Notes under the pieces: model-generated | Seen by the model: the letters and a program-made list of their open reading frames with translations, nothing else | Told to the model about the DNA's origin: nothing | Database searches by the model: none | In this document: positions 8,842-12,524 of the stretch, in pieces | Position numbering within the stretch: position 1 is the stretch's first letter | Layout of the letters: every line of letters begins with the position of its first letter | Assembly (NCBI GenBank): GCA_017460585.1 | Contig: JAFUAR010000008.1 | Span: forward strand, 1-32,458 | From: Clostridia bacterium | GTDB lineage: Bacteria > Bacillota > Clostridia > Christensenellales > Aristaeellaceae | Length of the DNA: 32,458 bases | Direction of reading: 5' to 3' | Position numbers and translations under genes: made by a program

Positions 8842-10287
8842 TCAATATGCTTTCCACGCGCTCGGAGCGAGCAGCATGAGAACGGGGAAGAATTCCAGTC
8901 GACCAATCAGCATACACATGGAAAGAATAATGGTGCTGAAATCCGAAAATCCGGAGTAGTTGCCGCTGGGACCCACCATACCAAGTCCGGGACCTATGTT
9001 GGAAAGGGCGGAGATTACGGCGGTTACGTTGGTTTCAAACGAGAAGCCGTCTATTGAGATCAGCAGCGTGGCGATGACCAGCACGGCGAAATACGCGAAA
9101 AAGAAGCCGTGTACGCCCGCCAGCGTATTTTCATTGACGGTGTGCCCGTCCAGTTTGACAATGTTGACCGATTTGGGGTGCACGGTCTTGCGAATTTCGC
9201 GCACCATGCTTTTGCACAGCAGCTGTACGCGAATCCATTTCATGCCGCCGCCAGTGGAACCCGCGCTCGCACCCACCAGCATCAGCCCCACCAATATGGT
9301 ACGGCTCAGCTGCGGCCACAGGTTAAAATCCGCGGTTCCAAAACCGGAGGTGCTCATTACGGTATTGACCTGAAAGAAGCTGTAGCGCAGCGCGGAGGGA
9401 ATATCGTAATCCATTTGCAAAACGAGATTGCCGCCGATGATGACGCTGGCAACCACCATCACAATCAGATATACGCGCAGCTCGCTGTTTTGCAAAAGCC
9501 CCTTCCAGTTGCCGCGGATGACGTAGTAGTACAGCGAAAAATTGATGCCAAACAGCGCCATAAATACTGTGACTATAATTTCCACGGCGGGGCTGCGGAA
9601 GGCTGCGATGCTGGCGTTATAATTGGAGAATCCGCCCGTTCCGGCGGTGCCCAGCGCGTGAATCAGCGCGTCGTACAAACTCATGCCGGTGCATAGCAGC
9701 GCGATGAGCATGAGCACCGTAAGCCCCACATACAGCAGGTACAGTATTTTGGCGTTTTTGCCAATGCGCGGCACCAGCTTATCGGTAGAAGGACCGGGCG
9801 ATTCGGCGCGCATGAGGTAAATGGAGCGCGCGCCCATTTTGGGCAGCAGCGCCAGCGATAGTACCAGCACGCCCATGCCGCCCACAAAGTGCGTCAAACT
9901 GCGCCAAAATAGCATACCCTTGGGCAGCGCTTCCACATCGGTCAATATGGTAGAACCGGTGGTGGAGAAGCCGGAGGCGGTCTCAAAAAACGCGTCCGCC
10001 ATGTTGGGAATGCAGCCGTGTATGAAAAAGGGCAGCGCGCCAAAGAAGCTGAGCAGAATCCAGCTGAGCGCCACCACGGCGAAGCCCTCGCGGGCGCGCA
10101 GATTGTCGTTGCGCGGCTTGAGCAGCGTCAATAGTCCGCCCGCCGCGGCGGTAATGGCGAGAGATACCACTATGGCTTTCGCGTCGCTCCCCCCGTAGAT
10201 GAGGGATACGATGAGCGGCACGAGCATGAGCGCCGCTTCCACCAGCAGCACGTAGCCGATCAACCGAAATGTCAGGCGTTTGTTCAT
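8842..10287 (-). CDS. trkH: TrkH family potassium uptake channel
   Basis: A 481-residue membrane protein with the four-fold pore repeat of the Trk/Ktr/HKT superfamily. Selectivity-filter-like segments are visible as ASGFSTTGST, GTAGTGGFSN, VNTVMSTSGFGTADF and NIGPGLGMVGPSGNYSGF, each preceded by hydrophobic helices. The protein forms the K+ channel part of a Trk system and needs the cytoplasmic regulator TrkA. Here trkA is directly upstream and its stop overlaps the trkH ATG (ATGA, 10284-10287), indicating coupled translation. Length and C-terminus (RLEFFPVLMLL) are typical. It is the last gene of an isomerase-like/trkA/trkH operon and runs into a shared terminator with the convergent exporter operon. 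Confidence 0.95.
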   Translation of the reverse strand: MNKRLTFRLIGYVLLVEAALMLVPLIVSLIYGGSDAKAIVVSLAITAAAGGLLTLLKPRNDNLRAREGFAVVALSWILLSFFGALPFFIHGCIPNMADAFFETASGFSTTGSTILTDVEALPKGMLFWRSLTHFVGGMGVLVLSLALLPKMGARSIYLMRAESPGPSTDKLVPRIGKNAKILYLLYVGLTVLMLIALLCTGMSLYDALIHALGTAGTGGFSNYNASIAAFRSPAVEIIVTVFMALFGINFSLYYYVIRGNWKGLLQNSELRVYLIVMVVASVIIGGNLVLQMDYDIPSALRYSFFQVNTVMSTSGFGTADFNLWPQLSRTILVGLMLVGASAGSTGGGMKWIRVQLLCKSMVREIRKTVHPKSVNIVKLDGHTVNENTLAGVHGFFFAYFAVLVIATLLISIDGFSFETNVTAVISALSNIGPGLGMVGPSGNYSGFSDFSTIILSMCMLIGRLEFFPVLMLLAPSAWKAY

Positions 10288-11657
10288 TTCTTCCTGATCT
10301 CCGTTCCGTCAAACGCGTCCTCCAGATTGATCACCGTGCCGGCCTTTGCGGTGAGAATGACCGTGTCGTCCGCTTCAATGTGATCGTCGCCGAAGGGGAT
10401 AATGTTCTTATGGTTGCGTACCAGTACCGAAACCAGTATGCCGGGTTTAATTCCCAAACGGTTGAGCGGTATGTTCAGATAGCCCGCGCCCTCTAAAGCG
10501 GTAAACTCGTAAGCCTCTACTTTGCCGCCCAGCATTCCATATACCTTTTCTACCACGGAGTTGCGGCTGTTGTTGAGCGCGCGTACCGAGCGCAAAATAA
10601 CGTTTGCGGTGGTGAGCTTAGGGCTGACCACGCTCTCGATGCCCAAATCCTCCATCACTTCCATGGTGTTTAGGCGATTGACCTTCACAATTACCTTTTT
10701 CGCGCCCCTGCGCGCTCCGTACATGCCCGTAATGAGGTTTTCCTCGTCGCGATTGGTCAAGCAAATCAGCGCGCCGCACTCGCCTACGTTTTCGCTGTCC
10801 AGCACCTCTTGATCGGTGCCGTCCGCGTTAATAATCATTACGCCGTCCAACAGCTCGCTCAGGTGCGTGCACTTTTCTTCCTTGATTTCCACAATGCGCA
10901 TATGCACGCCCATACCCGCGATAATTTTGGCGAGATAGTAGCTGATGTGTCCGCCGCCGATCAGCAGGGCGGACTTGAGGCGCTGCGTGTCCTTGCCCAG
11001 ATGCTTGAAAAAGCGGGTAATGGATTCGCGGTCGCCAGTAGCGTACAGACGGTCGCCGGCGGATATGGCGAAGCTGCCGCCCGGGATCAACGCTTCGCCG
11101 TTGCGCTGCGCGGCGTTGAACTGGATGTGCGGATAGCGCCCGTGCAGCTTGGAGAGCGGAATGCCGATGATGGGGTCGCTCGCCTCTACGCGGAATTCCA
11201 CCATCTCCACGCGCCCATGCGCGAACGATTCAATGTTGATGGCGAAAGGGAAGCGCAGTAAACGCGAAATTTCCTGCGCGGTGGCGCGCTCCGGATTGAT
11301 GACCTGATCGATATCCAGCTTATCCTGCAGCATGGTCAGGCTCTCAGTATATTCCGGATCGCGAATGCGGGCAATGGAATACTTTGCGCCCAATTGCTTC
11401 GCGGCCAAACAGCACACCATGTTCAATTCGTCGTTGCCGGTCACGGCGATGATTACATCGCACGTATCCACGCCGGATTCCAACAGCGTGCGCACGTTTG
11501 CGCCGTTGCCCTTTACGCACATTACGTCCAACGTTTCGCTCGCCTTTTCCAGCGCGCGCTGTTCGCGGTCGATAATGGTGATATCGTGCCCATCCTTGCT
11601 CAGAAACTGGGCCAGCGTGTAGCCGACCTTGCCGTCGCCTACGATAATGATATTCAA
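10284..11657 (-). CDS. trkA: TrkA, K+ uptake regulatory subunit with two RCK domains
   Basis: The frame stays open upstream, but conserved TrkA sequence begins at NIIIVGDGKVGYTLAQFLSKDGHDITIID. I therefore start at the TTG at 11657-11655, which has GGGAGG about 9 nt upstream, giving 457 residues. The protein has two Rossmann-type RCK_N domains. The first nucleotide-binding loop is VGDGKVG near residue 6, with acidic strand-end D near 28; the second is IGGGHISYY near 229. Each is followed by an RCK_C domain, ending near residues 215 and 450. It binds NAD(H)/ATP-type nucleotides and gates TrkH. Its TTG overlaps the TGA of the upstream isomerase frame (TTGA, 11654-11657), and its TGA overlaps the trkH ATG. 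If translation of the upstream gene stops early at its internal TGA, coupling into trkA would be lost, leaving only its own ribosome site. Confidence 0.94.
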   Translation of the reverse strand: MNIIIVGDGKVGYTLAQFLSKDGHDITIIDREQRALEKASETLDVMCVKGNGANVRTLLESGVDTCDVIIAVTGNDELNMVCCLAAKQLGAKYSIARIRDPEYTESLTMLQDKLDIDQVINPERATAQEISRLLRFPFAINIESFAHGRVEMVEFRVEASDPIIGIPLSKLHGRYPHIQFNAAQRNGEALIPGGSFAISAGDRLYATGDRESITRFFKHLGKDTQRLKSALLIGGGHISYYLAKIIAGMGVHMRIVEIKEEKCTHLSELLDGVMIINADGTDQEVLDSENVGECGALICLTNRDEENLITGMYGARRGAKKVIVKVNRLNTMEVMEDLGIESVVSPKLTTANVILRSVRALNNSRNSVVEKVYGMLGGKVEAYEFTALEGAGYLNIPLNRLGIKPGILVSVLVRNHKNIIPFGDDHIEADDTVILTAKAGTVINLEDAFDGTEIRKK

Positions 11658-12457
11658 AACAGAATCCCTCCCTGACCTACCTGCGCTTCCTCGCGCGCCG
11701 CCTTTAAATGGCGAAGCGCGGCGGAAGCCGCTTCGGCGTTCCAATCGCCTTCGCAAACCGCCGTTACGCCGCCGGAATAGCCCATGCGCGCCAGCAGGCG
11801 GAACAGCCGCGGATAATCCTCTCCGTCGCCCGGATGCGGCAGCGTGCGTCAGAGCGCGCAGCCTGTGTAGATGTGTATGAGCGCGGAACCGCAGCGGTCG
11901 ATCGCCTCTAAAGGCTCCGAGGCGTACGCCATTTGCACCGTATCGGCGAGCACTCCCACCTGACTGAGCTGCAACAGGGCGGACATGAGCGCCGCTTCGG
12001 AAACGGTATTGATCAAATTGCACTCGGCATGGCGCAGATTGCGTATGGCGACGCGAAGCCCGAACGCCTTGGCGTGCCCCTGCACAATGCGCAAAAAGTT
12101 GCCCGTTTGCCTTCGGGCCAGATCAAAATCCACCCCCGAAGGAATGTTGCGCGATCGCGCCGCGTCGAACGCCACAATGCGCGCGCCGAGCCGACTGGCG
12201 CGGTCAAATGCGAAATCGAGGTACTCGTGCTGGCGGGAGGCGCGTACGTCGGTTCCATTCACGCGCAGGTCGTCCGGCAGCATTTCGTACACCGCCGCCA
12301 CGCGCGTATGAGTGGCGCCCAGGTATGCGAGCAACTCTTCAAACTCGCTTGAGGAGAGCGCGCACGTTCGACAAAGCGGAAGCTCGAGGTAATCGTACCC
12401 CAGCCCCACCGCGTTGGGCGTTTGATCAAACGCCGCGCGCAGACCGATGGAGATCAA
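11654..12457 (-). pseudogene. Sugar-phosphate isomerase/epimerase-like TIM-barrel gene with an in-frame TGA
   Basis: From a TTG at 12457 (GGGGAGG 8 nt upstream) the frame reads ISIGLRAAFDQTPNAV and onward for about 200 codons in the style of the xylose-isomerase-like TIM-barrel (AP endonuclease 2) family. It then meets TGA at 11851-11849, just after YTGCAL. Beyond the TGA the same frame continues with family-like sequence (RTLPHPGDGEDYPRLFRLL, then GYSGGVTAVCEGDW) for 64 codons to TGA at 11656-11654, which overlaps the trkA start. The gene is therefore complete apart from a single nonsense codon. A CGA-to-TGA or GGA-to-TGA change, an assembly error or readthrough are all possible. If translation stops there, the product lacks the last barrel strand and helices. 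The substrate is unknown, and no catalytic metal ligands could be assigned with confidence. Confidence 0.75.
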
Positions 12458-12480
12458 ACATCTCGCCTCCCCGTATCGTC

Positions 12481-12504
12481 GCGTATACTTCCAATAGTAT
12501 ACGC
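12481..12504 (-). promoter_or_regulatory. Perfect 9-bp palindromic operator at the isomerase-trkA-trkH promoter
   Basis: GCGTATACT (12481-12489), a 6-bp spacer and AGTATACGC (12496-12504) form a perfect inverted repeat. The second arm contains the -10 box of the minus-strand promoter and the first arm covers the region just after the start point. Repressor binding here would block polymerase. The core GTATACT..CC....AGT.TA resembles the candidate operator of the ABC exporter at 5270-5289. Confidence 0.65.
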
Positions 12505-12524
12505 CCAAAGCGCGTTTTGGTCAA
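12496..12524 (-). promoter_or_regulatory. Sigma-A promoter of the isomerase-like/trkA/trkH operon
   Basis: On the minus strand TTGACC (12524-12519) and TATACT (12501-12496) are spaced by 17 bp. The expected start lies near 12489, about 30 nt before the TTG start at 12457. An ATG at 12508, in frame with the isomerase, falls within the promoter and so is not a usable start. Confidence 0.82.

Follow-up and report, generated by a model that had tools for sequence, protein, structure and literature searches.

In an epimerase-like/trkA/trkH operon, the first gene is interrupted by a single in-frame TGA, which on balance is probably a recent, private nonsense change, possibly with a low-level leak. 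The window (the whole stretch of 32,458 nucleotides that was analyzed, comprising one whole contig) belongs to a single metagenome-assembled genome of a gut-type bacterium (423 contigs, 87% complete).

An in-frame TGA in an epimerase-like frame

On the minus strand, sequence and translation place an epimerase-like frame from a TTG (12457-12455) through 202 codons to a TGA at codon 203 (11851-11849), past which it continues for 64 sense codons to a second TGA (11656-11654) that overlaps the TTG start of trkA (11657-11655). The features of the region are as follows:

12496-12524, minus strand: sigma-70-type promoter, TTGACC-17-TATACT, of which TTGAC and GGCGTATACT are kept in three same-genus relatives
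12481-12504, minus strand: perfect 9-bp palindrome GCGTATACT-N6-AGTATACGC, overlapping the −10 box, not kept in the same-genus relatives
12466-12472, minus strand: ribosome-binding site GGGGAGG before the TTG start of the epimerase-like frame, read directly
11657-12457, minus strand: epimerase-like (PF01261) frame of 267 codons with TTG start, TGA at codon 203 and its own stop TGA at 11656-11654 (sequence, translation, Pfam, alignment)
11849-11851, minus strand: in-frame TGA at codon 203, context CTC TGA CGC, in the predicted loop between strand 7 and helix 7 (sequence, structure model)
11657-11848, minus strand: 64 family-like codons after the TGA, corresponding in the model to helix 7, strand 8 and helix 8, in which relaxed constraint was not seen (Pfam, dN/dS, tree, model)
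11666-11672, minus strand: trkA ribosome-binding site GGGAGGG, within the tail of the epimerase-like frame, read directly
10284-11657, minus strand: trkA (TrkA, 457 aa), TTG start, 4-nt overlap with the epimerase-like stop
8842-10287, minus strand: trkH (TrkH, 481 aa), start overlapping the trkA stop

The original prediction of a single in-frame TGA in an isomerase-like gene, followed by 64 family-like codons and a frame end overlapping the trkA TTG, was borne out by the sequence, its translation and Pfam. The AP_endonuc_2 profile matched on both sides of the TGA, with the truncated form scoring 43 bits and the read-through form 64 bits (both above the PF01261 gathering cut-off of 31.1), and the 64-aa tail on its own matched profile positions 202-248. 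With the TGA read as Trp, the AlphaFold2 model of the read-through form had a TIM-barrel fold (pLDDT 95.4), which places codon 203 in the loop that joins strand 7 (193-198) to helix 7 (215-224). Judged from this model, truncation at codon 203 would remove helix 7, strand 8 and helix 8, and the barrel cut there would presumably be unstable.

Homologues, whose alignment at this site had been proposed as a check, had sense residues in all relatives examined (57 proteins, 20 loci) and TGA in none. Three same-genus orthologues (65, 60, and 61% identical) carry the sense codons AAG, ACG, and ACG at site 203. They align with the window without gaps across the stop site; since the alignment is gap-free on both sides there is no net frameshift, and a frameshift instead of a nonsense change was rejected. 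Frames are intact in all three species, one of which (G001) has its orthologue broken over two contigs (C75 and C143) near codons 201-214; the contig ends at this break differ (SDGDGED at the end of L004, REGDGED at the start of L024). The window alone has a stop at the site among 58 distinct homologues, the 57 others having T (29), G (21), K (2), S (2), and one each of N, D, and H; neither Trp nor Cys occurs there in any of the 57. Nor was a stop found at site 203 in 20 further loci (0/20, all sense residues), most of which were picked because a genome search had flagged a stop, the stops seen being natural ends. The in-frame TGA is thus more than chance, with N and C parts in register with the same family and the stop private to the window.

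Operon context and a trkA-linked clade

The window protein shares its fold with D-tagatose and D-psicose 3-epimerases (PDB 4xsl, 3vni, and 8xiv; Foldseek E ∼1e-15, TM ∼0.8), 3-epimerases being the top PDB matches of the model, and it gave a profile match to 7x7w (E 1e-12). NCBIfam equivalog level was not reached (44 bits for IolO and 29 bits for psicose epimerase, against cut-offs of 300). The Glu-Asp-His-Glu metal site of catalytic ketose 3-epimerases was not found in the window protein: where D-tagatose and D-psicose 3-epimerases have E-D-H-E, it has R-D-Y-V, with three of four ligands replaced, and its sister (G003) has Q-D-A-F, the ligand columns being set partly by alignment to 3-epimerase sequences and partly by the arrangement usual in the family. 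Judged from these residues, the gene in this lineage probably encodes a protein of the D-tagatose/psicose 3-epimerase fold that lacks the metal ligands and is non-catalytic.

Loss of metal ligands goes with linkage to trkA. At least one epimerase metal ligand was lost in 30 of 33 distinct trkA-linked homologues, whereas all four (E-D-H-E) were kept in 20 of 23 unlinked ones; the Fisher value for linkage versus ligand loss (3e-9) is not a true probability because the sequences are related. Close degenerate pairs had a dN/dS of ∼0.2. This pattern suggests that the trkA-linked clade may be a non-catalytic protein with a retained role beside TrkA. No sugar isomerase linked to trkA turned up in a search of the literature. 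With its metal site largely lost and its sequence still under purifying selection, this epimerase-fold clade could serve potassium uptake as a non-catalytic partner or as a sensor.

In most close homologues the epimerase-like gene lies upstream of trkA, with gaps of −4 to 421 nt; within the genus the gaps are −4 (window), 47, 80, and 111 nt. The earlier impression that everything else about the gene looked functional held only in part. The promoter was confirmed by conservation of TTGAC...GGCGTATACT in three same-genus relatives, whereas the palindromic “operator” (12481-12504) was absent from all three and the overlap proposed to couple the gene to trkA was not conserved in the genus. Even the functional-looking promoter is weak evidence for the first gene, since trkA and trkH depend on it too and it must be kept for them whatever the state of that gene. 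The further suggestion that readthrough sets trkA and trkH expression was not supported: the stop is private, the operator and overlap are unconserved, trkA has its own Shine-Dalgarno ribosome site, and no unusual or stimulatory RNA structure was found after the TGA (fold z −0.34 and 0.05). Readthrough is therefore unlikely to control trkA. Rfam gave no match anywhere in the window.

Origin of the stop

A recent nonsense mutation and a base error, both offered at the outset, were each supported by a stop that is private and downstream codons that are constrained. On a fixed tree (IQ-TREE), the window branch took 1.85% of tree length in the tail and 2.37% in the N part, compared with 1.96 and 2.47% for the branch of the intact sister. 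The dN/dS of window versus sister was 0.35 in the tail and 0.20 in the N part, values that are rough because synonymous sites are near saturation; the tail comparison rests on 54-57 comparable codons, so short a stretch that modest relaxation would be missed. Loss of constraint past the TGA was not found, the tail branch being no longer than the sister's, which fits a very recent event, and no second lesion was found in the epimerase-like frame. The stop is absent from orthologues, as in a nonsense pseudogene, but the loss of constraint that would mark one is not seen after it. Since the tail evolves no faster than the sister's, the stop must be recent, an artefact, or at least partly read through.

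If the TGA is a recent nonsense change, translation would mostly end at codon 203 and yield a barrel without helix 7, strand 8, and helix 8. Both trkA and trkH could still be translated, since trkA carries a ribosome site of its own, at which it would probably initiate independently. A small amount of full-length protein might perhaps still arise by near-cognate decoding of the UGA by tRNA-Trp. The base after the UGA at 11849-11851 is C, and UGA followed by C is a weak termination context, so that a low-level full-length product is plausible. As to how the codon arose, the change from CGA to TGA offered as an example at the outset is not borne out by the genus: TGA differs from the genus codons AAG and ACG at all three bases, and at least one unseen intermediate, or a small compensating indel pair, must be assumed. 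The sequence CTC TGA CGC could also be derived by paired compensating 2-nt indels from a CTG ACG CGC-like ancestor, although this pair is unnecessary because the sister has a CTC Leu codon.

The main rival, a real if lesser possibility, is a base-calling, consensus, or strain-mixing error in the metagenome assembly, with the gene intact in the cell. The source is a single, fragmented metagenome-assembled genome, the stop is private while its surroundings are constrained, and the break of the G001 assembly at approximately codons 201-214, with two differing sequences, means that this stretch was troublesome in at least one related assembly. However, none of the 214 ABC-type domains matched in this genome (ABC_tran 108, BPD_transp_1 106; ∼25-35 thousand codons sampled from two large domain families) contained an in-frame stop, so the assembly is not error-rich, and with three differences a single wrong base cannot yield TGA from the codons seen in the genus. 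The TGA is probably present in the cell itself.

A maintained UGA leak, in which partial Trp readthrough would set a low full-length dose and possibly affect trkA translation, is unlikely. The UGA-C context, a family-wide tRNA-Trp with a 4-bp anticodon stem and A24 (see below), the constrained tail, and the precedent of numerous bacterial genes whose in-frame stops are under purifying selection (PMC7918605) would all suit such a leak, but the stop occurs in no relative examined, and the conservation across relatives that marks programmed readthrough was thus not found. Moreover, the tRNA trait is family-wide while the stop is private, Trp occupies the site in no homologue examined, a stimulating RNA fold was not found, and the trkA overlap is unconserved in the genus. 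A long-established, decaying pseudogene is highly improbable despite the lost catalytic ligands and truncated barrel, given that a second lesion is absent and the tail is as constrained as in the intact sister; ligand loss, being common to intact and constrained relatives, is not decay.

Selenocysteine or a reassigned UGA codon has next to no probability, nothing but the identity of the stop as UGA being in its favor. The sel gene search that had been proposed gave no match for selA and none over the cut-off for SelB or tRNA-Sec in this genome (87% complete), nor any tRNA-Sec over the cut-off in eight relatives; no UCA-anticodon tRNA was present among those recovered (Rfam tRNA search and ARAGORN), and with the site never Cys in the homologues examined, selenocysteine is very unlikely. 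A changed code, considered unlikely from the start, is excluded by the absence of in-frame stops from all 214 ABC_tran and BPD_transp_1 domain matches, which, together with the use of TGA as the stop of over half the window genes whose ends were assigned, indicates a standard code in which in-frame stops are rare. As a stop codon it is a private lesion of an ordinary kind, or else an error of assembly, and a frame that stays open on both sides of a single UGA is no evidence of recoding.

tRNA-Trp and known cases of UGA readthrough

The sole tRNA-Trp found (CCA anticodon; L143:262-335, G000:C212) has the anticodon-stem arms UGGGU/ACCUU, with a U27:U43 mismatch, a 4-bp stem, and A24. These arms were present in all family genomes with a recovered full-length gene (17/17, including L155-L170), whereas in four genomes from other families of the order the anticodon stem of tRNA-Trp is 5 bp long and the UGGGU/ACCUU arms are absent. 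As a lineage trait, this form of tRNA-Trp cannot explain a private stop. Downstream of the tRNA (L182 260-2370, G000:C212) lie tyrosine-recombinase-like fragments and then two small genes that, named by eye, resemble a nucleotidyltransferase/HEPN pair, followed by a duplicated 3′ half of tRNA-Trp; the arrangement resembles that of an element integrated at the tRNA.

It is quite improbable that the family tRNA-Trp (U27:U43, A24) makes UGA generally leaky and that the TGA, as an allele that lowers dose and is tolerated, lies in a non-catalytic, sugar-epimerase-like partner of TrkA made full length only by Trp readthrough. If the tRNA-Trp does leak, UGA nonsense mutations would be milder than UAA or UAG ones in this family. 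A 2026 study found that a tRNA-Trp variant with a 4-bp anticodon stem raises UGA readthrough in E. coli (PMC13092985), and a 27:43 mismatch is likewise present in the tRNA-Trp described here. The latter differs in having a U:U pair in place of the mismatch tested there. It also bears A24, a form that was set aside in that study as confounded, within a group of 2,414 genes carrying A9C and/or G24A.

Belinky et al. (2021) cite 6% UGA readthrough in a prfB+ strain of B. subtilis and report that most bacterial in-frame stops are short-lived (PMC7918605). As a guard against artefacts, their set required the stop in orthologues of at least two species, whereas the window stop is found in one metagenome-assembled genome only. 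In its other traits the window gene is like the genes of that set (PMC7918605), with a single in-frame stop, a frame conserved beyond it, and apparent purifying selection on both sides.
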